Shown here one piece after another: positions 6,256 to 58,246 of a stretch of 64,000 nucleotides of DNA. Each line of letters begins with the position of its first letter. The stretch's first letter is position 1. Source of the DNA: an uncultured Anaerolineaceae bacterium (GTDB lineage: Bacteria > Chloroflexota > Anaerolineae > Anaerolineales > Anaerolineaceae); contig CAKMKJ010000002.1 in NCBI GenBank assembly GCA_927443345.1, positions 1-64,000 on the forward strand, written 5' to 3'. The notes under the pieces were generated by a model. That model saw only the letters and a list, made by a program, of their open reading frames with translations. It did no database searches and had not been told where the DNA came from. Made by a program: the position numbers and the translations under genes.

Positions 6256-6517
6256 GCCAGTCACATAAACTATTATTAAAACCTATTTAGTCCTTTTTCT
6301 TCTCTCAAAACAACATTTTTAATTCACAAATTATTGATGTCTACTTTACATAATTTTTATTGTTTTTACAATAATTATTTGTAAAATACAAATATCAATT
6401 GTTTTTTAAATCTTAGGACAATAATTAAGTTTGCAAAATTATTAAATGCGGTTTTGCAGTAAGACAAGCAGTACAAATTAGTAGTATTCTTATTAGTATA
6501 GTTAGAGGTAGGTACAA

Positions 6518-7162
6518 TTGAATAACAATACTTTAGAACTGGTAGAAATATTGACACAATCTTTACTTGACATGGATCGGATTAAAGTAAAGAAAGTCAT
6601 TTTGTCAAATTGTGAAAATTCCTCAATAATCACTTCAATTGAAGAACTTGTGGTTCCTGCATTGGAACGAATAGGCCAATCTTGGGAAAACGGTTCACTT
6701 TCCTTATCTCAGGTCTATATGAGCGGACGTATTTGCGAAGAAACAATTGACGATTTACTTCCGCCATTAGATCCTGACCGGACAGATCAACCCCCAATGG
6801 CTATCGTCGTTCTGGATGATTACCATATGCTAGGTAAACGCATCGTGTATTCAACCTTACGTGCTAGTGGCTTTGAACTTCATAACTATAACCATATGGA
6901 TATTGAAACTCTAGTAAAACAAATAAAGCTCGACGAAATTAAGATATTGCTGATTTCAGTGTTAATGCTTCCTTCAGCGTTACATATAAAAGACCTTCGC
7001 CAAAAATTAGATCAGGAAAACATCACATTAAAGCTTTTGGTTGGAGGTGCACCGTTTCGGTTTGATTCCAATCTTTGGACCGAGGTAGGTGCAGATGCAA
7101 TGGGCATTAGTGCAACAGATGCTGTAACTTATGTAAAAAAATGTATTGAGGAGCTATCATAA
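6518..7162 (+). CDS. corrinoid (cobalamin-binding) methyl-carrier protein
   Basis: A 214-residue protein with the two-part build of MtaC/MtbC-type carriers: a helical cap (residues about 1-85) and a B12-binding Rossmann domain with DDYHMLG (D-x-H-x-x-G, the His being the lower axial cobalt ligand), LLISVLM (S-x-L) and LVGGAPF (GG). Such proteins carry a methyl group on cobalt between two methyltransferases. The start is a TTG after AGAGGTAGG. The stop overlaps the next gene's ATG (TAATG), so it is coupled to the UroD-type methyltransferase. The DNA here and 260 bases upstream is clearly more A/T-rich than the flanks, which suggests acquisition. Confidence 0.88.
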   Translation: MNNNTLELVEILTQSLLDMDRIKVKKVILSNCENSSIITSIEELVVPALERIGQSWENGSLSLSQVYMSGRICEETIDDLLPPLDPDRTDQPPMAIVVLDDYHMLGKRIVYSTLRASGFELHNYNHMDIETLVKQIKLDEIKILLISVLMLPSALHIKDLRQKLDQENITLKLLVGGAPFRFDSNLWTEVGADAMGISATDAVTYVKKCIEELS

Positions 7163-19300: not shown

Positions 19301-21672
19301 TTATCCACAGTGGTTTGTTTTTCAAGCAATCTTGAATACAGGGTAAAGGCTTCTGCATAATTCTTCTTGCTGACCAGCAATTCGGCTTTCACCAATTGCG
19401 CATGCGTATGATCAGAATCCTGCTCCAAATACCGGTCAATAATAGATTCTACTTTTTCCCTTTCTTGAGCCGATATGGATTTAGGTTCGCCTGAATAATG
19501 TACATCCATGCCAACCACTGCTTCGGCATAAGTGAGTGCTGTTGGCGTGTTGGATTGAACTTGTGACAGCTTGGCTTGCAAGACTGTCTTGGCTTCAGTG
19601 TGCTTGCCGTTCTTGATTAACTGCGCGGCAAAAGCCTGGGCTATTTCTTCATTCTCAGGGAATTTTGAGTAGAGTGAGACGACCATTCCGTCATACTCGG
19701 GCAATCCGAGTATCTTCAACGCATCAAGTTGTAGTACACCGATTAGGGCATCTTGATCCTCTTCAGCAAGATCATTCAACAACGGCAGTGCTTCAGAGGC
19801 TGATCCACTATCCATAAGTTGTTCAGCCAGTCTGCGCTTGATTTCACGATCCGCGGGTAAAGCCGCAAGACCCTGACGCAAGGTTTCAATCGCTTGTCTG
19901 AATTCTCCTCCCTTAACCTGCAGCTCAGACAATCCAATCCACGGATCGGCGGCATCAGAGCCCACTTCAATGGCTTTTGAGAAAAATTCCAACGCCTGGT
20001 CCCGTTTTCCGCTCTTTGCATAAGCCTTGCCGTTAATCGTCAAGGCGATTGCATTCATGGGATCTTGCTCAATAATTTTGGAGGTGATCGGAAAAACCTC
20101 ATCAGACCTGCCGGCAAAAATGGCCGAATCAGCAAACTTCAGCATATCCGAAAGAACTGGCGCTTCTACCTCAACCAATTGCTTGCGCACTTTATAGCAG
20201 GCTTCTGAGTTGCCGGTTTGCGCATAACAATCAGCCAAATTTCTCAGCATAGGGGTTGAATTTTCGCCAGCCATTGAGGCAAATTCAAACAATGGCAGTG
20301 CTAATGCATAATCCGCAGCGTCATAATAAGTTTCGGCTGAAGCTTGTGTGGCGCTCAGGCTGGCTGGATTCTTGGCATGCAAACTGGCTGCCATTTTTAC
20401 AGCTTCTTTTTTTGCACCAAGATCAACCAGTGTTTTGACCATCTCAACCGGGTTCCAGTAGGGATTAAATTGCGGAACAAATTCAACTGCCGCATCAAAA
20501 GTGCGATTGTCTATGCTAATAAACGCTTTTTCACATTCCGATTTTGCAAGTTCAGGGTTGCCCGCAAAATTAATCTTTTTTGCCTGGCTTATCGCTGCGA
20601 TGGGTGTAGATTGCAGATCATCTTTATTCTCATCTTGCGCGACCACTCCCACACTGGCTAACTCCTGTGCCATCACTGGATGACTGGCTTGCTCCAACTG
20701 GAATTTGCGTACTTGCTCGTTATACTCAAGCCTGTTCGCGGTTTGTTCAAGCAGTGAAAGGTTTTGAATCTTGATGCCGGTCGAAATGGCATCAAAAATA
20801 GCGCTTGATTTTTCAAGCAGAATTGACGCCAGATCCGTTTCACCTGCTATCTGGGCGACACTGGCAATTTGCTTATAGTGCATGGATTGCTGCAAGGATG
20901 CTTCGAGGTTTTCCAAAATATCTTTGGAACCTTTTTCTGAAGCCTCTTCGATTTTGTATTTTCCAACCAATAATTGAGCAGCGGATTGGGCTAATTCTTT
21001 CTCGTTGATCGAGATTAAGAAACTGAGTGTTTTCTCGATAATCGCAGCGGTCTGGTCTTGCAAAGCTTTGACCAACTTTTCTGCCTTCTCATTTTCAGAA
21101 ATCGGCAAACTGATCACAGCAAAAACGAGGCTGTCTAAGCCCTGCTCAGCCGTCTGAAGTTTTAAGAGATCATAAAGGAATTCGTCTTGATCTTTAATCA
21201 AGTTAATTGTGATGATTAGGGCTGTTCCCCACAAGCCTCTGAGGGCTTTGCCATCGCTTAAACGCATGCGATTGACCACTTCGAGCAGCGTATGCCGCCA
21301 TGCTGGTGCGATTTTTCTCTTTTCAATCAACACCACGGCCAATTTGGCAGCTTCTTCAAGTGTCGTAGGAGCATTGTGTTGCTGCAGGAACGACTCATAA
21401 TTAACCATGCACGCTTCCAGCAGTGATACCTGCATGCGAGAATCAGGATAATTCGATTTTAACAACTCCTGATTAAAAGCCAATAATCCCAATGTTCCGG
21501 GATTTAGTTTTTGGCTTGCAGCAAGATCAGAGATTTGCTTGGTGATTTCACCCGTGGATTGGGTCAAAAATGTCCAGATTTTTTCGTCTGCCCTGAGCGA
21601 TCTTACCAGGCATGCGGCGTAATCTGTCGCATCAAGACTCCCCAGGGTATTGCGCAATTCAAGCACCTGCAT
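16345..21672 (-). CDS. giant tetratricopeptide-repeat protein (1775 residues)
   Basis: Almost the whole protein is helical repeat. TPR signatures are easy to read from about residue 400 to the end, for example 'AEKVLQKAVQIDPQDV', 'ALDALKQAMDAEPNDTRSYLAAANLYR' and 'ALEFFSKAIEVGSDAADPWIGLSEL'; the first ~350 residues are more diverged helices. There is no enzymatic motif, signal peptide or membrane helix. Such solenoids scaffold protein complexes or sense partners. It is flanked by a small two-helix membrane protein upstream and the peptidase gene downstream, all under one sigma-54 promoter. I infer a scaffold or regulator for the peptidase, comparable in logic to TPR-CHAT pairs. A GGAAGGGAGC ribosome binding site precedes the ATG. 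Confidence 0.85.
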   Translation of the reverse strand: MQVLELRNTLGSLDATDYAACLVRSLRADEKIWTFLTQSTGEITKQISDLAASQKLNPGTLGLLAFNQELLKSNYPDSRMQVSLLEACMVNYESFLQQHNAPTTLEEAAKLAVVLIEKRKIAPAWRHTLLEVVNRMRLSDGKALRGLWGTALIITINLIKDQDEFLYDLLKLQTAEQGLDSLVFAVISLPISENEKAEKLVKALQDQTAAIIEKTLSFLISINEKELAQSAAQLLVGKYKIEEASEKGSKDILENLEASLQQSMHYKQIASVAQIAGETDLASILLEKSSAIFDAISTGIKIQNLSLLEQTANRLEYNEQVRKFQLEQASHPVMAQELASVGVVAQDENKDDLQSTPIAAISQAKKINFAGNPELAKSECEKAFISIDNRTFDAAVEFVPQFNPYWNPVEMVKTLVDLGAKKEAVKMAASLHAKNPASLSATQASAETYYDAADYALALPLFEFASMAGENSTPMLRNLADCYAQTGNSEACYKVRKQLVEVEAPVLSDMLKFADSAIFAGRSDEVFPITSKIIEQDPMNAIALTINGKAYAKSGKRDQALEFFSKAIEVGSDAADPWIGLSELQVKGGEFRQAIETLRQGLAALPADREIKRRLAEQLMDSGSASEALPLLNDLAEEDQDALIGVLQLDALKILGLPEYDGMVVSLYSKFPENEEIAQAFAAQLIKNGKHTEAKTVLQAKLSQVQSNTPTALTYAEAVVGMDVHYSGEPKSISAQEREKVESIIDRYLEQDSDHTHAQLVKAELLVSKKNYAEAFTLYSRLLEKQTTVDKSLWERIQAGFAQTAAFMGKFEVALAAIKQAVDSQPEWVGLRKIMATIYGLAGEVSDALVQAERVLDVAPQIVESALWFADFASGLGKSDTAEDKLTTIIEMKSDDLLLRLKLAEMKIKNGKSVDALELMEEIKTSLSIESSETELLSAAKLYDSIHDIEAALNCLEFRAQSYESLSASLDLAGYDYMQGHFAKAGQALDKSEISSDLVQCLKADVLVKTGELDKAISLVQNSNQTTQDDELDLVFIPDAWKKLMASNYGNRAIEAKILLMQGKAATCLDVTALWLDGEPDNAEARIMAIESTLALGELPGEALFMPIVTNEVDDEASDHLTSLKINTLLENKQAIEAQQIFEKVGKVDSLSLKLADIQLTLMTGHLADAEAIFDEVLSARDEIKTKELHIQFGLNRLLVKAAASLQRWHEALTFSNEAVARHSWHMDCVMQALSTLTRAKEFEKTANSLSIDAHNPAAFLSKVNFEEELDGVAGLTGGKYEQEVERWLLRGKMCASPISENIRAFALVTPTPEDAAAMVAALHANGQETTAAQVAKKFPTNSQVLFELACVQADGDEAAALETLNTLIANDPLIPAAVALRGLIYENLGKLDLAINDLEQAISDWPNEILWRMKAASLWQNYGNNKNAIVQLQAAFDRNPEHAEAALELGKAFVSEGASEKAVEILSPLAKQNPNFYEAWEALAEAQSNCDQLEQALESAKKASQVNPFSIKPYLMSGKIHMLNGNLDKALDHARTAVTQNKKDANAILFLAKVLHKRGEKQQALAALEMTSQCDNVTVQTMVEHVNLVKEINGGAYAKELISSFSEKYPENVDLMKMLASAQEENGDTADAEKTVKRALQVEPDEPELHLILGKLSVETGQLDQAIHHLSQGIAHKAANTDGYLMLSKVYEQQREFTKALDALKQAMDAEPNDTRSYLAAANLYRNSKNYNAAEKVLQKAVQIDPQDVTIRRQLGALLALKLVHHSQEASSQS

Positions 21673-21710
21673 GGTAGCTCCCTTCCGCGATCAATACGGA
21701 TAAATAGAAA

Positions 21711-22034
21711 TTAATTAATCTGTAAGACAAGTCCGTATGCTGCGGCTAACAAGATGATTCCTAACATCAGAAGCAAGATACCGATTCCGGCAGTGGTCTT
21801 CACCATACTGTTGAGCGCTTCAATCAAAGTACGTGCATTGCCCACCAAACCGGATATTTCTTCGGTAATCCCTTTTTGCGCCAATTTAGCGGTTTGATCC
21901 GCGATTGTGCGCAATTCTTTACCCATTAATTTGCCGATCAGGGTGTAGACCCCGATGCCAAGCATCACGATACCGCAGATTAATAAAGCGGTGGCCATTG
22001 AAAGCAGAAAGTCATTAACCGTCATAGAAAACAT
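21711..22034 (-). CDS. small two-helix membrane protein
   Basis: A 107-residue protein with one hydrophobic helix near residues 9-36, an amphipathic stretch of about 45 residues (KELRTIADQTAKLAQKGITEEISGLVGNARTLIEAL, written as two adjoining helices), and a second hydrophobic helix near 82-105. I do not recognise a family. It is the first gene after the sigma-54 promoter and has a strong GGAGGG ribosome binding site, so it should be the most highly made product of the operon. A role as membrane anchor or pore for the TPR/peptidase complex is inference only. Confidence 0.75.
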   Translation of the reverse strand: MFSMTVNDFLLSMATALLICGIVMLGIGVYTLIGKLMGKELRTIADQTAKLAQKGITEEISGLVGNARTLIEALNSMVKTTAGIGILLLMLGIILLAAAYGLVLQIN

Positions 22035-22070
22035 GGTGCCCTCCAGATATAATTTACCTAAACGGCATGA

Positions 22071-22086
22071 TGCAAGGTTTATGCCA
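22071..22086 (-). promoter_or_regulatory. sigma-54 (-24/-12) promoter of the TPR/peptidase operon
   Basis: On the minus strand TGGCATAAACCTTGCA: TGGCAT, exactly five bases, TTGCA, followed by T. This fits the TGGCAY-N5-TTGCW consensus with the invariant GG and GC at the right distance. It starts ten bases after the response-regulator stop and would give a leader of about 26 bases to the membrane-protein gene. Confidence 0.85.
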
Positions 22087-22095
22087 AAGCATTTC

Positions 22096-23268
22096 CTAGC
22101 GGGGATTCAAGATGTCGCGCGGAAGGTCACCCAATGAGATGGTTTCGCCATCGCAGAAGATCAAGGCACGTTCAATCGCGTTGGCCAGTTCGCGGATGTT
22201 GCCCGGCCAGTCATACTTGAGCAGCGCCTCCATGGCTTGCGGAGAGACACCGGTGATGTTCGCGCCTTGCCGGCCATTGTTTTGCCTGATAAAGTAGCCC
22301 ACCATTTCGGGGATATCTACTTTGCGCTCGCGCAGTGGAGGAAGGTCTAGATCAATTTTCTTCAAGCGATAATACAGGTCTTGCCTGAAACTACCTTCTT
22401 TGACCATGGCTTGCAGATCACGGTTCGAAGCTACCACAACTTGAATATCAACGCTAATTAATTGTGTGCCGCCGACCCTCATAAATGAATGTGTTTCAAT
22501 GGCTCTTAATAATTTTGCTTGAATCTCAAGCGGCATGGATGAAATTTCATCCATAAAGAGGATGCCGTTGTCAGCAACCTCCATAAGTCCAAGTTTCTTC
22601 CGATCCGCGCTGCTGAATGCGCCGGCTTCATGTCCAAAAAGCTCAGATTCCAACACTGTGTGCTGGATGGCCGCGCAGTTGATGGCGATGAAGGGTTTGC
22701 CGGCCCTGGGCCCGTTGGCATGGATGTATTGTGCCAGCACATCTTTGCCGGTGCCGTTCTCGCCAGTGATCATCACAGACACCTGGGCGTCTGCGGCTTT
22801 GAGTGCCTGTTCCACCACAATTTTCATCAAGGGGGTCTGCCCGATGACAAAGTTGCTATTCTTCATTTGCTGCTCGCGGTAATGGGCAATTTCACGCCGC
22901 ATTGCCACAATTTCTAAAGCCTTTGCCAGTGATTTATCAAGCTGCACAAAATCCAGCGGTTTGGTCAAAAAATCAAGTGCCCCATTTTTCATCGCATCCA
23001 CGGCGGTTTCAATGTCACCAAAACCCGTAATCACAATAATAGGAGGCCTCACAGCTAGCATTGCAGTTTCCATGATCAGGGTTGGGCCGTATCCATCTGG
23101 AAGCTGTACATCCAACAGGATGACATCTCCCTCTCCCCTTTTTACTCGCTCACGAGCCTCAGTCAGCGTTCCGGCTTCAATGATTTCGTGTCCTTTGCCC
23201 TTTAGAAACTCGCCAATATTTTGACGGGCACTTTCTTCATCATCCACGATCAAGACGCAAAAACTCAT
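22096..23268 (-). CDS. NtrC-type sigma-54 activator lacking a DNA-binding domain
   Basis: A 390-residue response regulator. The receiver domain (1-120) has the acidic pocket D9-D10-E11, phospho-acceptor D53 and K103. The AAA+ domain (about 138-375) has Walker A GENGTGKD (169-176), Walker B GILFMDE (235-241), the arginine region and WPGNIREL (354-361). The sigma-54 contact loop, normally GAFTGA, reads GAFSSA (216-221). The protein ends at DLPRDILNPR, right after the AAA+ domain, so the usual Fis-type helix-turn-helix is absent. Such activators can act from solution without enhancer sites. Its ATG overlaps the kinase stop. Confidence 0.93.
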   Translation of the reverse strand: MSFCVLIVDDEESARQNIGEFLKGKGHEIIEAGTLTEARERVKRGEGDVILLDVQLPDGYGPTLIMETAMLAVRPPIIVITGFGDIETAVDAMKNGALDFLTKPLDFVQLDKSLAKALEIVAMRREIAHYREQQMKNSNFVIGQTPLMKIVVEQALKAADAQVSVMITGENGTGKDVLAQYIHANGPRAGKPFIAINCAAIQHTVLESELFGHEAGAFSSADRKKLGLMEVADNGILFMDEISSMPLEIQAKLLRAIETHSFMRVGGTQLISVDIQVVVASNRDLQAMVKEGSFRQDLYYRLKKIDLDLPPLRERKVDIPEMVGYFIRQNNGRQGANITGVSPQAMEALLKYDWPGNIRELANAIERALIFCDGETISLGDLPRDILNPR

Positions 23269-49646: not shown

Positions 49647-49728
49647 GGGGAAGTGCTGGAATTGGCAGACAGGCATGACTTAGGATCATGTGCCGCGAGG
49701 CGTGAGGGTTCAAGTCCCTCTTTCCCCA
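49647..49728 (+). tRNA. tRNA-Leu(UAG)
   Basis: Full class II tRNA. The acceptor GGGGAAG pairs with TTTCCCC (one G-U), the D arm contains GGAATTGGCAGAC, the anticodon stem-loop CATGA-CTTAGGA-TCATG gives UAG (leucine, CUA codons), there is a long variable arm, and the T arm is GAGGG-TTCAAGT-CCCTC. The discriminator is A and CCA is not encoded. Its 3' half is the integration site of the element to the right. Confidence 0.95.
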
Positions 49729-49729
49729 C
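49676..49729 (+). repeat. attL: left 54-bp direct repeat in tRNA-Leu
   Basis: From the anticodon stem to one base past the discriminator of the tRNA, identical over 54 bases to 58193-58246. The identity ends where the flanks diverge (CCTCA here, TGGCT on the right). Confidence 0.93.
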
Positions 49730-49760
49730 CTCATTTTTGAATATAGGTTATACGCAATTT

Positions 49761-50942
49761 TCATTGAACGGCTTTTTTCTCGGCGAAAATAGCCGTTTTT
49801 TGTTGCAATCTGTTGCAATCATCTAATTCAATCGCTGTAATAGTTGTAATATCATCCATTAGCCGACTTGCGCGTTCTTGATCGTCTTGAATATAATGTG
49901 CATAGGTTGACAATAAAACCGCTACACTTTGACCTAAAATACCAGCTACTCTTACCGGTGGCTCCCCATGTAAAAGCATTATGCTTGCTGCTGTATGTCG
50001 TATATCGTGAAAACGAATATCTGGTAATCCGGCAATTTTAATTAGTTTATCGAAGGCTTTCGATACGTTATAACCATTTCGCGGTGTCCCTTTTTCTGAA
50101 GGAAAAACCAAATCATTTTCTTGCCAATCGTCCCCGGCAATTGCCTTCATAAGCGGTATTGTTGTTTTGTAATGATTTCTCAATGCTTCGATCAATCCAG
50201 GTCCCAACCTGATCCCTCTTCTACCTCGTTCTGTCTTTGGACCTTGAAAAATAAAACCGCCACCTTCAGGTTCGTAAACTTGCCGGCGAATTTGTAACAT
50301 AGCTGCATTCCAATCTACATCTTTCCATTGAAGACCAATCAATTCACCTCTTCGCATTCCAGTTGCAAATGCCAGCCGATAAAATGGATCTTCAGGGACC
50401 GTTATTAAAAATTGATTTACTTGGGTTTCATCCCAAACTGACATTTCTCTTTTATCCGGTCTCGGAACTTCTACCATTTCTGCCCAATTTTGAGCAATTA
50501 ACCCTAATTTGTTCGCGTGACTTAAAAAGCCATGTAGAACGGTATGGACTAATTCAATTGTTCGTTTTCCAATATTTCGATTTTCTAATTCCCGGTAAAA
50601 TTTTTGTATCTTTGCCGGTGAAATATCTTGAAGTTTTGCATTCCCTAAAAATGGTGAAATATACAACCTTGATAAACGCCGGTATTGCTCTTCTGTGGCC
50701 GGTCTGGAATTTGTTTTTTTTGCAGCAAGCCATATTATCAGAAGTTCATTGACTGAGGTCTTTGAGCTTGAATAGGTAAGACCTTGCCTTACTTGACCTG
50801 TCGTATTTGTTAGCCATTCCTGCGCTTCTTTGCGTAGTTTGAATGTTTTACTTACTCGTTTCCCTTCGATACTGACCTGAGCAAGCCAGGTACCATTTGA
50901 CCTATGACAAAGTGATCCTTCGCCGTGTGATCGTTTACTCAT
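49761..50942 (-). CDS. tyrosine recombinase (integrase)
   Basis: A 393-residue phage-type integrase. An N-terminal arm-binding region (about 1-55), a SAM-like core-binding domain (about 62-160) and the catalytic domain are all present. Catalytic residues: R197 (TGMRRGEL), K236 (GPKTERG), H312-x-x-R315 (HDIRHT) and nucleophile Y347 (STYAHYI). The position usually held by the second His (LGHS) is Gln338 (LGQS). It ends 32 bases from attL and points toward it. Its 3' end carries the GTTGCAATCTGTTGCAA repeat that recurs near attR. Confidence 0.95.
   Translation of the reverse strand: MSKRSHGEGSLCHRSNGTWLAQVSIEGKRVSKTFKLRKEAQEWLTNTTGQVRQGLTYSSSKTSVNELLIIWLAAKKTNSRPATEEQYRRLSRLYISPFLGNAKLQDISPAKIQKFYRELENRNIGKRTIELVHTVLHGFLSHANKLGLIAQNWAEMVEVPRPDKREMSVWDETQVNQFLITVPEDPFYRLAFATGMRRGELIGLQWKDVDWNAAMLQIRRQVYEPEGGGFIFQGPKTERGRRGIRLGPGLIEALRNHYKTTIPLMKAIAGDDWQENDLVFPSEKGTPRNGYNVSKAFDKLIKIAGLPDIRFHDIRHTAASIMLLHGEPPVRVAGILGQSVAVLLSTYAHYIQDDQERASRLMDDITTITAIELDDCNRLQQKTAIFAEKKAVQ
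49802..49818 (+). repeat. GTTGCAA double repeat near attL (possible integrase arm site)
   Basis: GTTGCAATCTGTTGCAA lies in the last codons of the integrase gene. GTTGCAATCTTGTTGCAA recurs at 58044-58061 near the other end of the element. Symmetric placement suggests binding sites for integrase or the excision factor. Confidence 0.45.
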
Positions 50943-50961
50943 TTTGCGACCTTTCTTAATA

Positions 50962-51073
50962 ATAAAGTGCTGTACTCATGCGTTTTGTCTGACGTTTGTC
51001 TAGGACGTAAGGCTTTAACGCAATAAGTACAGCACTTTATAGACAAACAAAAAAGCCTTACAACGTCCTAGAC
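50962..51073. repeat. interleaved inverted repeats between integrase and cargo gene
   Basis: Arm A (50962-50976, ATAAAGTGCTGTACT) pairs perfectly with A' (51026-51040). Arm B (50998-51016) pairs with B' (51052-51073), except for a three-base bulge. GTTTGTCT (50994-51001) also pairs with AGACAAAC (51041-51048). The order A-B-A'-B' is a pseudoknot topology. Candidate roles are a replication origin, recombination accessory sites or a structured RNA. Confidence 0.7.
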
Positions 51074-51167
51074 AATTTCATTATACATTTTTTCTTCAAC
51101 CATAACAAGATAAATCTAATGCATTTTTATGTATAATCAGTAATTACTATTTATTTGGGAGGATACT

Positions 51168-52082
51168 TTGAAAAAAACATTTCTTTTTTTCAAGCAATTA
51201 CATCTTGTTTGGAAAATGGTTTGTATATTTAGTGTTTTATTATTTATCTATTTAATTTTTGCGAATATTTTTGGAGCAAAATACTGGTTACAAGAAACCG
51301 GTTTTTCTGGAAAGTATTTATGGGATTGGTTGAACCTCGCAATTCTTCCCATTAGTCTTTCGAGTGTGCTCTATTTTCTACAATCCAGCGAAAAGAAAAA
51401 AGATAGAGCGATTGAAGAAGAAAAACAAAGAGAAACAGATTTTCGCGAATATACTAGATATATAACTTCGCTTATTAAGGATATAAATTTAGATAATTAT
51501 GAAGACTGTAACTCAATTCATGCTATCGCAAATCTTGAAACTTCAACAATAATTTCCAAATTGGACAATAAAAGATTAGGCTTTTTAATTTCATTTCTTA
51601 GCTCATCTGGTTTAATTCAGAAAAGAATGAACGATTATACGTTAATATCGATAAATAATATTGACCTAAGTTCTTTGTCTCTTAATCCGTTTGTTTTTCA
51701 AACCTGTTATTTAAATTCATGTAAATTTTCAAATTCAAACCTAGAATTATTTCAATTTCAAAATTCCACTTTATTTAACTTAGATTTTTCTAATGCAATT
51801 ATTAATTTTTCGGATTTTTCAAATTCAAAAATTATAGGGACAAAATTCGTTAACTCAAAATTAGCCGGTGCTATTTTTTCCAATTCTGAAATAAAATCTT
51901 CGAATTTTTCGAATTCTTTATTGCTTCAATCAGAATTTAAAAATTGCAAATTTAATGGAGTAAATTTCACAAATGCCTGCCTTGATCAAACCAATTTCCA
52001 AAACGTGAGATATACAAATAATACTATTTGGCCTGAAGGGTTTGATCCAATAGCCGCAGGCGCGATTATTGTAGATTCATAA
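51168..52082 (+). CDS. membrane-anchored pentapeptide-repeat protein (cargo)
   Basis: A 304-residue protein. Two hydrophobic helices (about 14-35 and 50-68) are followed by a charged linker and, from about residue 155 to 285, repeated five-residue units of the F-x-N-S/A-x type (for example CKFSNSNLELFQFQNSTLFN and SDFSNSKIIGTKFVNSKLAG), which should form a right-handed beta helix. The start is TTG with GGGAGGA upstream. It is the only plus-strand gene of the element, very A/T-rich, next to the integrase, where satellites keep accessory genes. Defence or lysogenic conversion is inference. Confidence 0.75.
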   Translation: MKKTFLFFKQLHLVWKMVCIFSVLLFIYLIFANIFGAKYWLQETGFSGKYLWDWLNLAILPISLSSVLYFLQSSEKKKDRAIEEEKQRETDFREYTRYITSLIKDINLDNYEDCNSIHAIANLETSTIISKLDNKRLGFLISFLSSSGLIQKRMNDYTLISINNIDLSSLSLNPFVFQTCYLNSCKFSNSNLELFQFQNSTLFNLDFSNAIINFSDFSNSKIIGTKFVNSKLAGAIFSNSEIKSSNFSNSLLLQSEFKNCKFNGVNFTNACLDQTNFQNVRYTNNTIWPEGFDPIAAGAIIVDS

Positions 52083-52123
52083 AAAATCATATTTAGTTTG
52101 TAAAGATCAATTGTTGGTTGTAA

Positions 52124-52148
52124 GGGATGGTAGTTTTACTACCATCCC
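52124..52148. terminator. hairpin between convergent cargo and coiled-coil genes
   Basis: Perfect 10-bp stem GGGATGGTAG / CTACCATCCC with a five-base loop, placed between two converging stop codons. Confidence 0.65.
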
Positions 52149-52162
52149 GTAGTAAAAACTAT

Positions 52163-52927
52163 TTAAGAATTTTCAATATTCCTATTTTCAATAAATGTTA
52201 TATTGCCTTCGTTGTCCGTCCCTACACGGCCCAATTGTTGGAATAGTGTAAAGCTTCCAATTTCGCCATTTGGCTTTGTGTACCCTAAATCCGCGTCAGC
52301 GTGTTGGATCGTTTTCCTTGCCTGCTCTAATCCTTCAACGGCTTCAGCGGCCTTTTTATGTGCATCATCTAAATCAGGCATAGTACGCAATTCTTTTAGT
52401 TTTAAATTGGCTTTTGTGGCTAAACCATTAGCGCTTAAAACTTCGTGAGTTATCGGATTATTACCTTTTGGTAATAACTTGACTAATCCCCTAAAGACTT
52501 CGCAAGTCGCACGCTGCTGCTCTACGGTACCGCGCATACCGTCTTCAAAAAATCCCTCAAGATTTTTTACCGCTCTTCCAATGTCATCACGGCCTAACTC
52601 GGTTTTAATACGGTCTTCCATCATTTGACGTTGACTATTTATTTCGCTGGCATTCCAACGTTTTACTTCCTTAGCTTTCATGAGGTCAACGATCTCGAAG
52701 CTTGTTTTTACATGGTCGATTGCATTATTCCATTCGGTAATCGCGCCGGTTAATACTGATTTTTCTATCTTTTCACGCTGCTCGACAATCGACTTTTCAA
52801 TGATTGCACGCTCGAAAGGGGTCATAATATTGGTGTATTGATTGTATTGGTCGCGTGCCGCTTTTAGCTCTTTGAGGCTTTCCCGCCAATTATTACTGCT
52901 GTTAGTTGTGAAATGATTTGTAAACAT
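52163..52927 (-). CDS. helical (coiled-coil-like) protein downstream of the terminase
   Basis: A 254-residue, highly charged, mainly helical protein with no membrane segment; regions such as IIEKSIVEQREKIEKSV look coiled-coil. I do not recognise the family. It follows the large terminase by 33 bases on the same strand and would be translated with it (ribosome binding site GGAGT). In satellites this slot often holds packaging or capsid-size factors; nothing in the sequence proves that here. Confidence 0.65.
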   Translation of the reverse strand: MFTNHFTTNSSNNWRESLKELKAARDQYNQYTNIMTPFERAIIEKSIVEQREKIEKSVLTGAITEWNNAIDHVKTSFEIVDLMKAKEVKRWNASEINSQRQMMEDRIKTELGRDDIGRAVKNLEGFFEDGMRGTVEQQRATCEVFRGLVKLLPKGNNPITHEVLSANGLATKANLKLKELRTMPDLDDAHKKAAEAVEGLEQARKTIQHADADLGYTKPNGEIGSFTLFQQLGRVGTDNEGNITFIENRNIENS

Positions 52928-52960
52928 GTTATTACTCCTTTATTTGTCTTAGTAGATTTT

Positions 52961-54634
52961 TTATTTTTTCAAGCTATTCCAAAATATATTTTTTATTTCA
53001 ATACTCCTATCTTCCGAATCAGGTCCCATTGGACGTGAATTTAACAATCGGTCTATTTTTGTTTGTTCTGGGTCAACTGTTTTATTAAATTCTTTTTGTT
53101 CTTTCCAGAAGTCTTCTTCTTTTTGGTAAACACCTTCCGCATCCAGTTCGTCAATACAGGCTTGACATTTACTTGAAAAAGGACAATTTTCGTGATTTAT
53201 TCCTGGGGGGTGCGGCGCTTGATTACATCCAGGCACCTCTTCCCAATAAACAGCACCACCTCTTGGGATTTTCAAGTAATTTTTCTGCCAGCCGGGGGAC
53301 CAATCAACTTCTAGAAAACTTGGCATAATCTCAATTCTTTGATATTGATATTCCCGTGACATTAAACCGTCAACAAGTAATGCAACACAATCAGCTAAAT
53401 CATCATGCGTTATTCGTCCACTCTTTGGTGCTGCTATGTCAACGCCATTTCTAATTTGTAAAGCCTTAAGTTCATCTATCAGTTCCCCATCATTAGGCAA
53501 TAGGATCGTTTCAAGATTTATTGCTTCTTTGAGTGAGCCATAAATCTTTAGTTTCATTGGTCTGGTAAAAGGTTTGTAAACCATAGCCGGTATTTTTGGC
53601 TTTAGTCTTTGGACTGTTGAAGCATTATCACAAAGAACGCCTGAAGGTTTATATCGTTCGACTAGGCTTTGTAATAGGTCTTCAGCACCGTTTGCATCTA
53701 CAGGTGGATGTAATGCCTTTATATAATCAATAATAATTACCCCGTCTTGTTGGTGCGCTATCCCGAAACCGTAACGATCCCGCATAAGCGCCGGATCAAC
53801 TGCCATAAGGTAACTGTCTACCTTTATTTTTCTGTCAAAAATATGAACTCCTTTATCAATACAGCGTTCTAATGCTTCGCTATTAAAAAATGCTTCAGTT
53901 CGCTCTCTGAATTCACAAAGATATTCAGCGCTTGCACTTTCAGAATCACGCTTCAAAGCGCTTTGAATTGTCTTTTCACTAACCGCCGGATTCATTTCAG
54001 TAGTAGGTGCTTTGGTTACAAAGAATTCTGGCAATTCACCCTGGGTAGAACGGTCAAACAGGTCATAGACAAGCCCCTGTTTAGCCCCTACGGAAGTAGT
54101 GATAACAATACGTGCTTTATCCCCAAAAGTCGCTGTAGTAGGCTCTAAGGCCGTATAAATAGCTTCAGCGCTTGAATTCCCCAGCGTATCTACAAAGAAA
54201 GCAGCTTCATCTAATACTAAGGTACTAGCTGTATAACCGCGTGCGCTTCGTGCGCTTGCTGGCAAGCATAAAATAACGCAACCATTTGACAATATAATCC
54301 GGTCTTCAGCAACCTTTTCAATGAGTGATCCAATCTCTTTACGGTGTCGAAGTAACTTATTAATATTCCTGATATGTAATCCGGCGCTATCTTGTCTCAC
54401 ACTTACCAATAAAATATAACGATCCTCATTATCTCGGACCATTCCCTCAAAGTCAGGTACTAGTGCTTCATAACAGGCGATAACATCGGATAGAAGAGAT
54501 TTACCCGAACGGCGACCTGCCAATAATAGCCAGTTTTGTTTGCCACTCTCATAGTATTCAGAAAGTGTTGAAGCTTGGCCTGGGTGTAATTTCACTCCCA
54601 GCGTGTCATGTGCAAAGTTAACTATTTGGTGCAT
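52961..54634 (-). CDS. phage terminase large subunit (DNA packaging motor)
   Basis: A 557-residue TerL. ATPase: Walker A-like AGRRSGKS (39-46) and Walker B LVLDEA (139-144, D142-E143). Nuclease of the RNase H fold: D280 (MAVDPAL), D336 (VLCDNAS) and the pair D411-D412 (THDDLADCVALL). The C-terminal extension contains a cysteine cluster (CNQ...CPFSSKCQAC), possibly zinc-binding. It overlaps the preceding small gene by 17 bases. In a normal phage, portal and capsid genes follow; here they do not. Confidence 0.9.
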   Translation of the reverse strand: MHQIVNFAHDTLGVKLHPGQASTLSEYYESGKQNWLLLAGRRSGKSLLSDVIACYEALVPDFEGMVRDNEDRYILLVSVRQDSAGLHIRNINKLLRHRKEIGSLIEKVAEDRIILSNGCVILCLPASARSARGYTASTLVLDEAAFFVDTLGNSSAEAIYTALEPTTATFGDKARIVITTSVGAKQGLVYDLFDRSTQGELPEFFVTKAPTTEMNPAVSEKTIQSALKRDSESASAEYLCEFRERTEAFFNSEALERCIDKGVHIFDRKIKVDSYLMAVDPALMRDRYGFGIAHQQDGVIIIDYIKALHPPVDANGAEDLLQSLVERYKPSGVLCDNASTVQRLKPKIPAMVYKPFTRPMKLKIYGSLKEAINLETILLPNDGELIDELKALQIRNGVDIAAPKSGRITHDDLADCVALLVDGLMSREYQYQRIEIMPSFLEVDWSPGWQKNYLKIPRGGAVYWEEVPGCNQAPHPPGINHENCPFSSKCQACIDELDAEGVYQKEEDFWKEQKEFNKTVDPEQTKIDRLLNSRPMGPDSEDRSIEIKNIFWNSLKK

Positions 54635-55016
54635 CTTTTACCTCTTTATCTCTGTAAATATCCAAAATCGTTGAAGGGTCATACTTTGTTGCAGATTTGT
54701 CATTGATTGCAACCTGGGACCATGCTCTCAAAGTAACCCCTGAAAGCCATCCGAACCTTGAAATATACCGATCAAATGCGGCTAAATCACCGTCTGCTGC
54801 TGCCTTTTCAACTGCGTTAAAGTAAAGATTTAAACATGATTGCAACCGGATTGCATCACGTTTTACTATTTCAGCCTGACCATTGGCCTGTAATTCAGCT
54901 TCAACTGCCTTTTGTTCGTCTTTTGCCAGACCAATAAAGGGTTTTCCCTCTGAAATTCGCCTTATAGCGCCTTCGGCACCGTGTTTTATCGCATTCTGGT
55001 TATTTTCCTTTGTCAT
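54618..55016 (-). CDS. putative terminase small subunit
   Basis: A 132-residue protein immediately before and overlapping the large terminase. The opening NQNAIKHGAEGAIRRISEGKP and the helical remainder (LQSCLNLYFNAVEKAAADGD) resemble small, basic-start terminase partners, but no clear helix-turn-helix is visible. The assignment rests mainly on position. Family knowledge: the small subunit recognises the packaging site, so in a satellite it would redirect packaging to satellite DNA. Confidence 0.55.
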   Translation of the reverse strand: MTKENNQNAIKHGAEGAIRRISEGKPFIGLAKDEQKAVEAELQANGQAEIVKRDAIRLQSCLNLYFNAVEKAAADGDLAAFDRYISRFGWLSGVTLRAWSQVAINDKSATKYDPSTILDIYRDKEVKDAPNS

Positions 55017-55160
55017 GCTTTTACCTTTCCTTATGATTTACAATCATGTGCAACTGTTTAGGACCATAAATTGATCGTTTCGTAAGCATTCCTGGCCCGT
55101 AGAAGTAAGGGCGGGAAGTCTGTTTTTCTTTCCTTCTCAAATGTAAAAGCATCTGTAATC

Positions 55161-55219
55161 TGTAAGCCCCTTAAGAAAAGGGGGGCTTACATACACATCA
55201 TTAGCTGTAAGCCTTACAG
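55161..55219 (-). terminator. hairpin region between replication and packaging genes
   Basis: TGTAAGCCCC (55161-55170) pairs with GGGGCTTACA (55182-55191), and the palindrome CTGTAAGCCTTACAG (55205-55219) overlaps the helicase stop codon. The repeated TGTAAGCC unit may also be a protein-binding site. The remaining 140 bases up to the small terminase hold no gene. Confidence 0.6.
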
Positions 55220-56209
55220 TAAATTTACACACGGTTTACACCTTACAGACAAATCATAGATAGCCCTTTTACCTGTATTAGTTCTCGTTACAGTTCCTTT
55301 ACGTTTGAGTGAATATAGGGCTTGCCTAGCCCCTTGTGGGGTGCATGTGCTGGCTGCTTCTAGCATTACATCAACGTAAGAAGCGCCGTTATCAGTCAGA
55401 TATTGAATAATAAAGGTTTCACTTTTACCAGTTTCGTTTGGCTGCCTAATGGAAGGTTTCAAATAGAATTGATCTTCTGACCATATGGCTTCGGCTGCCC
55501 AGGCTGTTTTTTCGCCGTCCCTGTTTTTTTCGGTCTGGAAGTTAATCAAGTTGCTGCCATTATCGCTTGTTACCTGTACCATCAAGTCAACGCTGCCTTT
55601 GATCGCACTACTTCCCCTATATCCGCCTTGTTTATTGGAATGGTGAATTATCAGGATCGCGCTATCTGTGATTTCAGCCATTTTTCGCAAATGATTAAAA
55701 ACGGGTTGTATATCCTTTTTATCGTTTTCGTCCCCGTCCATTAAATCGCTAAGGGCATCGAATATAACCAGCTTGGCACCTGTGCTTTCAATTAGGGCTT
55801 GTAAAATGGTAGGGTCATTATCACTATCCAGTTTGAAGCCAGCAAGAGAGACAAAAAATATCTGACTAGTGGTATCACATAATTCACCCCGAATTGATTC
55901 ACTCAACCGGCGGGAAAATCGCCGTTCTCCACTCTCTTCATCTATGATAAGAACAGGCGCTTGTTTTGTTTTAAAATCAAGCCATGACTTTCCACTAGCC
56001 ACACAAACCGCCAAGCTTAGCATTGAATAGGTTTTTTTTGAACCCGGCTCCCCAAAGAAAACATTTACGCTGGAATTGGTAATTAGATTGTCAATGATGT
56101 AATCAATAGGCGGTTGGGGCTGGAGAGCAAAAGTTGCATCTCTTAGAATATAACGCGGTCTATCTTGGGGGGGTGGTTTTTGTGTGTCTACTTGGGTTGT
56201 TATATTCAT
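55214..56209 (-). CDS. RepA-like AAA ATPase/replicative helicase
   Basis: A 331-residue RecA-fold ATPase of the RepA/AAA_25 type. It has Walker A GEPGSKKTYS near residue 53, acidic strand VLIIDEESGE, Walker B KLVIFDALSDLMDG, and 'IIHHSNKQGGYRGSSAIKGSVDLM' near the C-terminal side of the core. These hexameric helicases unwind plasmid and satellite origins. A winged-helix-like tail follows (about 265-320). Its ATG overlaps the primase stop (ATGA), so the two work as a replication pair. Confidence 0.85.
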   Translation of the reverse strand: MNITTQVDTQKPPPQDRPRYILRDATFALQPQPPIDYIIDNLITNSSVNVFFGEPGSKKTYSMLSLAVCVASGKSWLDFKTKQAPVLIIDEESGERRFSRRLSESIRGELCDTTSQIFFVSLAGFKLDSDNDPTILQALIESTGAKLVIFDALSDLMDGDENDKKDIQPVFNHLRKMAEITDSAILIIHHSNKQGGYRGSSAIKGSVDLMVQVTSDNGSNLINFQTEKNRDGEKTAWAAEAIWSEDQFYLKPSIRQPNETGKSETFIIQYLTDNGASYVDVMLEAASTCTPQGARQALYSLKRKGTVTRTNTGKRAIYDLSVRCKPCVNLL

Positions 56210-57198
56210 TTTGCCCCCTCTAAATTGTCAAGTTCACTTAATAACCAATCCAGAACATCACCACCGGATTGAAAGTATTCTGATAGGTCTTTCCCTTGGG
56301 GTAAAGTACCTGCTTTATGTATTGCTGGAATAGCTTCAATTAGTTTTTCTGCCGCTCTCAGACCTTCAGCGTCTTGATCGTAGGCAATAATTAAATCTTG
56401 AATTGGGTCAAATATCGGTTGCCATTCTGGGTGAATAGAATTACCAGCCGGTAAACTAGCACTTCCAACGCCCGGCAAAGTCTGATAAGCCAGCAGCGCG
56501 TCAAATTCTGACTCAAATAAAAACGCTGTAAGCGCGTTCTTAAAAGTATTTCCCCCGTATATAAAACCTGTTGATCCTTTGACAATGTAATATTTTGGAT
56601 CGCCCGAAGGCCTTCTGATTTTCAAATACTTTAGTTGTTGGTCATGAAAACAAGGAATTACAATACCACGCGGCAACCATATTTTTTCGGTCGGTGATAA
56701 TCCCCATTTAACAGGATCGCCGTAGTGATCCTCTGGATTAAAACCGATTTGTGCATTACAAACAGTCTCAATCAATAATCCCCTTTTAGCTAGCCAATCA
56801 ATGGCTTTTTCAGCGTCTAAAAAAGAAAGTTTACTTTCTGATAAAAACTTGGTTGCTGCTTCATTCCATTTGTCTTTGTCATTCGTTTTTACTTGCTGGG
56901 GTGGTTGGTTTATAGGCGTACTCACTCCGGTTAATTTGGCAACTGCGTTCTTAAAATCAACCTTATCCCGCATCATGACAAAATCAATTGGACTATGCCA
57001 GCGGCCTTCGCCACATCCCCTACAAAACCATTTTCCCCCTTCTGGCCCGAACGGTTGCACTCGGAAGCGGTCAGTTCCTCCACATAAAGGGCATGGTCCT
57101 GCATATTCGCCGCCCCCACTACTGGATACTTTTTTATTTATTCCTGTGAGCTGTAGTAGGTCAACCATACGATTAACTTCATTAGCGTTTACTCGCAT
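56206..57198 (-). CDS. primase with CHC2 zinc finger and Toprim domain
   Basis: A 330-residue primase. The zinc finger reads CPLCGGTDRFRV and KWFCRGCGEG near residues 35-62; the Toprim core has the acidic residue in FLFESEFDALLAY and D-x-D in IIAYDQDAEG. It lacks the DnaB-binding C-terminal domain of chromosomal DnaG, as in phage and plasmid primases. It overlaps the AlpA-like gene upstream and the helicase downstream, giving a compact replication cassette. Confidence 0.88.
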   Translation of the reverse strand: MRVNANEVNRMVDLLQLTGINKKVSSSGGGEYAGPCPLCGGTDRFRVQPFGPEGGKWFCRGCGEGRWHSPIDFVMMRDKVDFKNAVAKLTGVSTPINQPPQQVKTNDKDKWNEAATKFLSESKLSFLDAEKAIDWLAKRGLLIETVCNAQIGFNPEDHYGDPVKWGLSPTEKIWLPRGIVIPCFHDQQLKYLKIRRPSGDPKYYIVKGSTGFIYGGNTFKNALTAFLFESEFDALLAYQTLPGVGSASLPAGNSIHPEWQPIFDPIQDLIIAYDQDAEGLRAAEKLIEAIPAIHKAGTLPQGKDLSEYFQSGGDVLDWLLSELDNLEGAK

Positions 57199-57398
57199 AA
57201 ATCTACCTTTGTCCTGTTTTTAGTAATGAATTGTTCCAGATCAGACGCAAGTACTCGAACCGTTGAAGTACCAAAACGGACTGAAGGAATTGCGCCAGTT
57301 TTTAAGAGTCGGTAGGATTCGGTTCTTGAAATATTCAAGATTTTTGACACATCAACCGCTTTTAATAATGAAGGTATTGACTGGGTTTCAATATTCAT
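57189..57398 (-). CDS. AlpA/excisionase-type DNA-binding protein
   Basis: A 69-residue winged helix protein: 'LKAVDVSKILNISRTESYRLLKTGAIPSVRFG' (given in part) is the HTH_17 pattern of AlpA and Xis proteins. It could direct excision, activate the replication genes that follow, or both. It overlaps the primase start by ten bases. Confidence 0.78.
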   Translation of the reverse strand: MNIETQSIPSLLKAVDVSKILNISRTESYRLLKTGAIPSVRFGTSTVRVLASDLEQFITKNRTKVDLCE

Positions 57399-57401
57399 AA
57401 T

Positions 57402-57596
57402 CTACCCCTTTTGATTTGTATTTTTATTCAAAACTATTTCACCTACAGAATAAAGACCGCGTTTTTCAGCAGCTTCACGGATCGCAACTCTGATAAATTC
57501 AGAAGTTCGTAAACCCTCTCGATTTCCCATTACTTCAACAAGCTTGAATTCTGGTAATGAAAGTCTGCTTGAAATAACAACATATTTTTCATTCAT
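57402..57596 (-). CDS. small ribbon-helix-helix-like protein
   Basis: A 64-residue protein whose 'YVVISSRLSLPEFKLVEVM' and 'LRTSEFIRVAIREAAEKRG' resemble the strand and two helices of ribbon-helix-helix repressors. It is first in the AlpA-primase-helicase transcript, so a role in controlling the element's replication is likely but unproven. A/T-rich DNA with short inverted repeats (CGTCTA...TAGACG, 57629-57652) lies just upstream and could be an operator. Confidence 0.65.
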   Translation of the reverse strand: MNEKYVVISSRLSLPEFKLVEVMGNREGLRTSEFIRVAIREAAEKRGLYSVGEIVLNKNTNQKG

Positions 57597-57680
57597 TTTT
57601 AACCATCCATTTAAATAAATTACCGTCTACTATATTGAGAATAGACGATAATTTACGATAGTATAAGTACCTTACAAGTA

Positions 57681-58028
57681 CTATTTATCAGGCAATATTG
57701 TAGGGGTTATTCCTCTGGATTTGAATTCGCGCATGACTGTATTTTGTTTTCGGTTTGTTAATAACGCAATGTCACTATAACCAATCTTAAATCCTGCAAG
57801 CTGCGATAATTCATAATAGAGGTACCACGCGTCCCAATCAATTACTTTTTTGGTAATGTATGGTTTTCCTGGCCTTGCCGTTATTTCTAAATCGCCGTTC
57901 ATAACCTTTTGAAGTCCCGAAGTCGTAAGATCAGTTCGTAATATTAGACTGTCTCTGATAATCTCTGGGTGTTTTTTTACTACCCAATCAAACCATTCAA
58001 TAACGCCTTCATCGGTAAAATCAATCAT
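57681..58028 (-). CDS. hypothetical protein of the satellite
   Basis: A 115-residue protein, not recognised. The middle reads TTSGLQKVMNGDLEITARPG and 'YSDIALLTNRKQNTVMREFKSRG', the latter like a helix-turn-helix recognition unit, so a regulator is possible. It is the gene nearest attR; about 160 A/T-rich bases with no gene separate them. Confidence 0.6.
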   Translation of the reverse strand: MIDFTDEGVIEWFDWVVKKHPEIIRDSLILRTDLTTSGLQKVMNGDLEITARPGKPYITKKVIDWDAWYLYYELSQLAGFKIGYSDIALLTNRKQNTVMREFKSRGITPTILPDK

Positions 58029-58043
58029 GGTCGTTTATCCTTA

Positions 58044-58061
58044 GTTGCAATCTTGTTGCAA
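58044..58061 (+). repeat. GTTGCAA double repeat near attR (possible integrase arm site)
   Basis: GTTGCAATCTTGTTGCAA, partner of 49802-49818. It lies between the last gene and attR. Confidence 0.45.
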
Positions 58062-58192
58062 ACTTTAAAAAGACACATAAGAAAAATGTTAGAAATGGTA
58101 CTCATGTTACTAGTTTAATCCTAATTCACTTGTTTGTTTAGTATAATAGGTACGCATTTAACGTATAGGGAACGATGATAAGCCCTTGGTGT

Positions 58193-58246
58193 TGACTTAG
58201 GATCATGTGCCGCGAGGCGTGAGGGTTCAAGTCCCTCTTTCCCCAC
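58193..58246 (+). repeat. attR: right 54-bp direct repeat
   Basis: Identical to the 3' half of tRNA-Leu(UAG) from the anticodon stem. It lacks the 5' half, so it is not a functional tRNA; it marks the pre-integration 3' end, 33 bases from the tig start codon. Confidence 0.93.

Follow-up and report, generated by a model that had tools for sequence, protein, structure and literature searches.

A putative phage satellite with its own terminase in a tRNA-Leu gene of an uncultured Anaerolineaceae bacterium

The island and its gene content

The window, the whole 64,000-nucleotide stretch of DNA analysed here, carries an island in a tRNA-Leu gene that sits upstream of the trigger-factor gene (Table 1). 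The insertion is clean and precise. As claimed in the preliminary description, it is bracketed by perfect 54-bp direct repeats (100% identity, spacing 8,517), and the corresponding empty site is found in a same-genus genome, G742, with 92.0% identity over 589 bp across the junction. GC content is 0.384 between the repeats and 0.460 in the remaining window, and all ten described island ORFs are open.

Table 1. Features of the island and its target site, in window positions
Feature	Position	Strand	Evidence or remark
tRNA-Leu, integration target, left intact	49647..49730	+	ARAGORN
attL, 54-bp repeat, 3' part of tRNA-Leu	49676..49729	+	
Tyrosine integrase, 393 aa	49761..50942	-	Phage_integrase 73.5 bits, cut-off 27.1
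Pentapeptide-repeat protein, cargo-like, opposite strand	51168..52082	+	Pentapeptide_4 64.9 bits
orf254, third gene of packaging block	52163..52927	-	homologues in all five relatives
TerL, 557 aa	52961..54634	-	Terminase_6N 30.7 bits, cut-off 22; PHROG_2 E 2e-25
TerL C-terminal tail, residues 434-557	52964..53335	-	conserved PHPxG...NC...CxAC
Putative TerS, 132 aa, overlaps TerL start	54618..55016	-	position, conservation, helical content
Intergenic, direct and inverted TGTAAG-type repeats	55017..55213	-	candidate origin and/or pac/cos
RepA-like AAA_25 helicase	55214..56209	-	AAA_25 117.4 bits, cut-off 27
Primase (Zn ribbon and Toprim)	56206..57198	-	Zn_Ribbon_Prim 35.4, Toprim_2 26.3, both above cut-off
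AlpA/excisionase-type HTH (HTH_17) protein	57189..57398	-	TIGR01764 30.6 bits, cut-off 28.8
Ribbon-helix-helix regulator	57402..57596	-	RHH_1 15 bits, below cut-off
orf115, first gene of row	57681..58028	-	no family match at E 0.1 or better
attR, second 54-bp repeat copy	58193..58246	+	

The intact integrase, the primase with its RepA-like helicase and the TerL named in the preliminary description are all borne out by open reading frames or family matches above cut-off. The integrase is 74% identical to that of the relative G774 and 69% identical to that of G691:C3. The proposed AlpA-like regulator stands in part: the protein matches the excisionase/HTH_17 model, but the AlpA model reaches only 15.2 bits, under its cut-off of 21, so its regulatory role is assumed. 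This protein has 51-56% identical counterparts in two relatives, and the ribbon-helix-helix protein has a 47% identical counterpart in the G774 circle. The pentapeptide-repeat gene and orf254 are additions to the earlier gene list; the pentapeptide-repeat protein has a hydrophobic N-terminus by eye, and PADLOC gave no match for it.

Capsid, portal and tail families are matched by none of the ten island proteins at E < 0.05, and the rows for orf254 against a head-tail adaptor (E 0.89) and for the helicase against a tail spike (0.056) are at chance level. Since orf254 and orf115 match nothing, the earlier statement that capsid and tail genes are missing holds in the sense that none is recognised. 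The marker genes of P4 are sid, psu, delta, epsilon and alpha, none of which is named among the family matches of the island proteins.

The putative TerS retains that adjective. Its position before TerL, its conservation (31-66% identity to homologues in four relatives) and its helical content (a helical model, pLDDT 69.5) point to a small terminase subunit, but profile searches gave no match to any TerS family. Likewise, orf254 has no sequence-family match, and its AF2 model (mean pLDDT 80) is largely helical and includes a helix of 55 residues. Foldseek searches with both models returned nothing at E 0.001, and the top VIA matches, to designed helical proteins and 14-3-3, are within chance for helical models; terminase folds are absent from these fold searches, an absence that does not amount to exclusion.

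In the gap between helicase and TerS, CTTACGAAAC and a small palindrome precede TerS and recur in part in relatives. The repeat density of this gap ranks 1, 1 and 2 in three islands, in a ranking made without L112, and 25/836 in the window and 67/814 in G752, which hints weakly at an origin in these two elements.

A family of six elements with a common packaging block

A search for homologous islands, proposed as a check in the preliminary description, found five relatives of about 8.5 kb. Four (G752:C41, G774:C80, G691:C3 and G691:C4) lie in three related Chloroflexota MAGs, and the fifth is the IMG/VR contig L112. With the window island, the lengths are 8,298, 8,452, 8,474, 8,503, 8,517 and 8,679 bp (mean 8,487, SD 123), the members having been picked by sequence and not by length. 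They differ in recombinase (tyrosine, serine or none seen), in replication genes and in cargo, and L112 has no integrase among its listed ORFs. TerL and orf254 are kept in all six, and a homologous gene in the TerS position in five. The exception is L112, whose ORF in that position (6411-6845) has no detected TerS homology and was left out of the TerS alignments; by eye it has only the GNxxAxKHG start in common, and it has a CPL-domain match just below cut-off (20.9 vs 22.3 bits). Head and tail families other than TerL were not found among 50 scanned proteins of the relatives, with both G691 elements covered.

Two relatives appear circular by the overlap of their contig ends, the only such cases when identical ends of at least 10 bp were sought in the collected loci. 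The ends overlap by 127 bp in L112 and by 10 bp in G774, the latter being less than an assembler's usual circle overlap, and a prim-pol ORF of G774 continues through the join. The G774 circle also holds a 54-bp counterpart of attL, 90.7% identical. Two traits of a phage satellite in the broad sense are seen here: site-specific integration, in the att repeats, the integrase, the empty site and the circular relatives, and less than a full virion gene set, of which TerL alone is recognised. Mobilisation by a helper phage would be the third.

These observations bear on two other readings. In the first, the island is what deletion left of a temperate phage after its head and tail genes had gone; a genuine phage, S-CBS4, does have a related TerL core (29.8% across 71% of the protein). 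Against this, the block is common to five relatives that are near-equal in length and vary in recombinase and replication genes, the listed ORFs are open, the att repeats are perfect and two members are circular; given these relatives and the empty site, we disfavour this reading as highly improbable. In the second, the element is a self-sufficient minimal virus or is carried in vesicles, with orf254 or other genes making a particle that TerL fills. The conservation of orf254 in 6/6 members with no family match, the tightly held length, as a fixed container would impose, and the origin of L112 in a viral contig collection are in keeping with it. Terminases require a portal, however, and none is recognised; orf254, moreover, is predicted as mostly helical with one long helix and has no fold match, which leaves this reading very unlikely.

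A mosaic terminase and the search for phages and helper

Residues G40, R41, R42, G44, K45, D142, E143, D280, D336, D411 and D412 are invariant among five diverse TerLs, and we take them to fill the Walker A, Walker B and acidic (Asp) nuclease roles. The protein thereby holds the residue set expected of a functional terminase. With the core/tail boundary set by us at residue 434, the window and G752, of the same genus, have cores that are 22.7% identical (z 0.9) and tails that are 53.3% identical (z 55.5). The TerL of the window therefore appears mosaic relative to that of G752, with cores not detectably similar and tails 53% identical with conserved His and Cys residues. Between G752 and G691:C3, the cores are 59.5% and the tails 34.7% identical. 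Only the window-G752 pair shows the mosaic clearly: weak similarity links the window core to those of G774 (25.7%, z 8.5) and G691:C3 (24.6%, z 4.2), and G774 and G691:C3 resemble each other more in the tail (58.7% over 46) than in the core (41.7%). Conservation of the tail where the core is not conserved suggests docking to a partner, and the Cys/His tail is likely an adaptor through which TerL meets the portal of the helper or orf254.

An integrative plasmid, in which TerS, TerL and orf254 resolve concatemers or block incoming phage by binding proheads, would account for plasmid-like replication genes, for the occurrence of a terminase gene on small plasmids in other phyla and for the lack of a listed integrase in L112. 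The pairing of the TerS position with TerL, the intact ATPase and nuclease residues and the partner docking suggested by the tail argue the other way, and we regard such a plasmid as unlikely.

Complete phages or prophages with the block were sought by way of its genes. The window TerL was found in 2 of 400 genomes in the phylum sample and 2 of 400 in the order sample, its own genome included in each. The TerL tail was found in 4 of 147 genomes of the family and in 1 of 327 of the class sample, its own only, with many genomes scored on only 12 candidates. Searches with orf254 gave 4/147 family genomes (five places), and those with TerS 3/400 genomes of the order sample (four places). A TerS pattern scan of genome contigs found three loci but not G691:C4, so counts from such scans are too low. 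IMG/VR searches gave one relative, L112, and at least 40 relatives of the TerL core, four of them viewed as ORF lists. INPHARED gave no match to TerS or orf254, and the TerL tail was not found in a full phage in the IMG/VR and class-sample searches.

The integrase was matched in 31 of 147 family genomes at E 1e-40, the four best places, whose gene contexts were viewed, at 100, 74, 69 and 53% and the remaining ones at 35-43%. Homologous full prophages, held in the preliminary description to speak for a remnant, were looked for among carriers of the TerL tail and orf254, as distinct from prophages sharing the integrase at 35-43%; the five relatives with both features are elements of about 8.5 kb, two of them circular, an outcome opposite to that expected of a remnant. 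L009 (G049:C84, 8,635 bp, TerL 29%, integrase) was not counted as a member, its ends having no overlap, and a G776 contig was uninformative, its integrase adjoining ORFs that resemble host genes.

Prophages with an HK97-type portal are present in the genome that the window comes from and in G752, so tailed phages infect these hosts. In G691 and G774, searches for a PF04860 portal and a PF05065 capsid were both negative. The search for a helper prophage, also proposed earlier, gave no candidate by shared genes: neither prophage has a protein in common with the window island, G774, G691:C3 or G752 at E 1e-3.

Packaging model and known satellites

We consider the island, with a probability of about three in four, to be a phage satellite that has its own packaging motor and is packaged in a helper's capsids. 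Its replication mode, packaging and helper, like the identity of TerS and the roles of the tail and orf254, are what we infer. In this model, the integrase and the AlpA/Xis protein would move the island into and out of tRNA-Leu, and the primase and RepA-like helicase would copy the circle into concatemers, perhaps from the helicase-TerS repeats. TerS would bind satellite DNA, and TerL would cut it and pump it into the proheads of a tailed helper phage, so that units of about 8.5 kb or multiples are loaded into helper capsids. The product of orf254 probably acts at the prohead, in size setting or docking, and could itself be structural.

PICIs and SaPIs use the helper's TerL. The island resembles them in its integrase, AlpA-type regulator, replication genes and absence of recognised structural genes, and differs from them in having TerL and orf254. 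The available text on PICIs defines them by an integrase, a replication module, a master regulator and no structural or lytic genes, a gene set that the island contains if its regulator is assumed to be the master regulator, and describes some PICIs as carrying TerS (PMC6092414). PICIs are there given as 12-15 kb, in contrast to 8.3-8.7 kb in 6/6 members of this family (PMC6092414). The cf-PICIs, as far as described in the source text, encode both terminase subunits as well as capsid, protease, portal and connectors (PMC10690885). The island has TerL and a putative TerS assigned by position and conservation, and no gene of the latter four kinds is recognised in it or among the 50 proteins of the relatives. 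The Streptomyces satellites MulchRoom and MiniFlayer have their own TerS and TerL but, according to the same text, also portal and capsid genes, and they lack an obvious replicase (PMC10690885). The Vibrio PICMI is also small, with integrase, AlpA and primase. It is described as packaged as a concatemer; unlike the island in tRNA-Leu, it integrates at fis, and in the available main text the word 'terminase' does not occur (PMC10803314). Marine VEIMEs and tycheposons, compared here through secondary mentions, are similarly integrative elements proposed as satellites (PMC10803314, PMC11389934, PMC10690885, PMC10187409).

Satellites with a terminase were not found for Chloroflexota in the open-licence papers searched, which agrees with the novelty claimed earlier for this phylum; TerL-carrying satellites as such are already known, with capsid genes, from the source cited for cf-PICIs (PMC10690885). 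A tentative extension, to which we give somewhat less than even odds, is a class of satellites built around the motor only: TerS and TerL, with an exchangeable core and a conserved Cys/His tail as portal adaptor, would form a complete motor, orf254, as a new helical prohead factor, would set the capsid size for a fixed unit of about 8.5 kb, and only shell and tail would be stolen from the helper. Such a class, if real, would invert the arrangement of classic satellites, in which the motor is that of the helper.

If the satellite reading is right, an own motor with a borrowed shell would be an added packaging strategy, in a phylum for which the open-licence papers searched gave no described satellites. 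It would also open a test of whether portal choice by the motor depends on the TerL tail alone, for which the TerLs of the window and G752, with similar tails and cores not detectably similar, may serve as a natural domain-swap experiment.

Gene layout and insertion site

The att repeats, the tRNA-Leu and the island genes lie in the window where the preliminary description had placed them. Genes orf115, RHH, AlpA/Xis, primase, RepA-like helicase, putative TerS, TerL and orf254 follow in this order in a single minus-strand row, with the integrase gene flanking attL, and the pentapeptide-repeat protein looks like variable cargo. This protein is weakly similar to HalA of the anti-phage Hailong (NCBIfam, 21.5 bits, far under the cut-off of 250). 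The claimed lack of recognisable capsid or tail genes was borne out: at E 0.001, TerL was the sole head or tail family detected, both among ten window proteins and among 50 proteins of five relatives (G774, 9; G752, 9; G691:C3, 11; G691:C4, 11; contig L112, 10), a set that excludes the G774 integrase and some short ORFs (below roughly 60 aa).

In G742, a genome of the same genus, trigger factor directly follows tRNA-Leu with no island between, and a 783-bp query made by joining the window flanks aligns to it with 92.0% identity over 589 bp spanning the junction. The tRNA-Leu site of G752, also of this genus, likewise lacks an island, the flanks matching in two pieces (79.9% and 85.6%) that adjoin in G752 but are separated by 75 unaligned bp in the query. 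The trigger-factor locus was obtained from 13 of 16 genus genomes, and ARAGORN located tRNA-Leu in 11 of these 13, adjoining the trigger-factor gene or at most about 1 kb off; of the two exceptions, one is the locus in the window, in which the island lies between the two genes, and the other is L080, on a contig cut off within the tRNA.

Relatives, integration and length

Homologous islands, proposed earlier as a check, do exist: five relatives carry an orf254 homologue and the TerL tail. TerL and TerL-tail searches retrieved G752:C41, G774:C80 and G691:C3, an orf254 search added G691:C4, and a five-row TerL-tail alignment led to IMG/VR contig L112. Integration mode is not uniform among them. 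The G774 circle holds a 54-bp match to the tRNA-Leu repeat (90.7% identity), and G691:C3 is flanked by 19-bp repeats at a spacing of 8,474 bp; ARAGORN detected no tRNA at the element or in its joined flanks. G752:C41 and G691:C4 encode serine recombinases and split a host gene, which we take to be comM, at one shared point immediately ahead of the Walker A motif; insertion may disrupt comM and excision may restore it. G752 also holds a degenerate extra copy of comM, roughly 2 kb away from the split one. No integrase was seen among the L112 ORFs. Judged by overlapping ends, G774 and L112 are circles; in G774 the overlap measures just 10 bp, but an intact prim-pol ORF crosses the join, resembling its G691:C3 counterpart along its length by eye.

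Coordinates and public records of the elements and associated features
Feature	Location or record	Remark
G774:C80	JAJFTV010000196.1	public Chloroflexi MAG record
G691:C3	SLTK01000007.1	public Chloroflexi MAG record
G752:C41	PHBW01000019.1	public Chloroflexi MAG record
Serine-recombinase islands inside presumed comM	L105 6000-14503; G752:C41 about 73366-81664	
Degenerate presumed comM copy	L056 14001-14700	
Pentapeptide-repeat protein gene	window 51168-52082	strand opposite to gene row
C57 prophage TerL	about 21452-23221	TerS-position gene adjoining; basis, position only

The six elements measure 8,298, 8,452, 8,474, 8,503, 8,517 and 8,679 bp (mean 8,487 bp, SD 123, n=6), the borders of the two comM islands having been placed by eye on a short core common to both, so that their sizes are possibly off by some bases. 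Gene content varies through a cargo of about 1 kb that is present or absent, recombinases that differ or are missing, and a primase-helicase that is separate or fused. Because gene content is more variable than length, length itself seems to be under selection, as expected from unit or multiple packaging.

The packaging block

The putative TerS shares 31-66% identity with the TerS-position genes of four relatives, and the L112 ORF at this position looks unrelated to it. Homologues of orf254 show 22-33% identity in four relatives and E 1e-11 in L112; its model consists of long helices (mean pLDDT 80), for which no fold match was found.

By sequence, the window TerL retains the key residues; it matches PHROG_2 best and PHROG_9 more weakly (E 1e-9), and the five relatives' TerLs match PHROG_9 best. 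With the core/tail cut placed 40 residues before PHP and z taken relative to shuffles, the window-G752 pair shows no core similarity above shuffles (22.7%, z 0.9) and a closely similar tail (53.3%, z 55.5), BLAST similarity starting at about residue 380, where the nuclease part ends. The G752-G691:C3 pair is reversed (core 59.5%, tail 34.7%). The contrast is less clear in the other pairs: window-G774 (core 25.7%, z 8.5; tail 46.2%), window-G691:C3 (24.6%, z 4.2; 32.9%), G752-G774 (48.7%; 52.0% over 50) and G774-G691:C3 (41.7%; 58.7% over 46). The tail motifs PHPxG, NC and CxAC are kept in five aligned members and, by eye, in L112. The simplest reading of these alignments is that the window lineage would have exchanged its TerL core and retained an adaptor tail, which, as expected of a TerL C-terminus, would meet a portal.

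Candidate helpers and other terminase carriers

The window's genome holds a prophage that could serve as helper. This candidate helper, on contig C57 (29.5 kb; L071, L072), extends past the contig end and has an HK97-type portal and, by eye, a tail-to-lysin gene order. PF05065 capsid occurred in G752 only among four genomes searched. Since no prophage protein of C57 or G752 had a counterpart at E 1e-3 in the island of the window or in the elements of G774, G691:C3 and G752, no helper is named.

Terminase genes also occur on plasmids of 11-30 kb from Salinibacter, Streptomyces, Rhodococcus and Komagataeibacter (NC_014026.1, NZ_CP108092.1, NZ_CP025962.1, NZ_CP134887.1); ten scanned proteins from three of these include fragments of terminase, a head protease and a protein resembling a tape measure, with no major capsid match. 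Small replicons with terminase may be widespread. A distant Chloroflexota contig (L009; G049:C84, 8,635 bp) encodes an integrase, along with a TerL that shares 29% identity with that of the window; the contig ends do not overlap, and it is a possible remote cousin of the island.

In the available portions of the literature, some PICIs carry TerS (PMC6092414), cf-PICIs encode full heads and Streptomyces satellites carry terminase plus capsid (PMC10690885), and terminase is unmentioned in the main text on PICMIs (PMC10803314). Whereas cf-PICIs and Streptomyces satellites pair terminase with capsid, the window family has a putative TerS and TerL with no capsid recognised, a combination that the accessible parts of PMC10690885, PMC6092414, PMC10803314 and PMC11389934 do not describe. 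Carriage of TerL by a satellite is as such already known; what looks new against these sources is an element of 8.5 kb with TerS and TerL but no capsid, a pattern seen in six elements, with the TerS position homologous in five.
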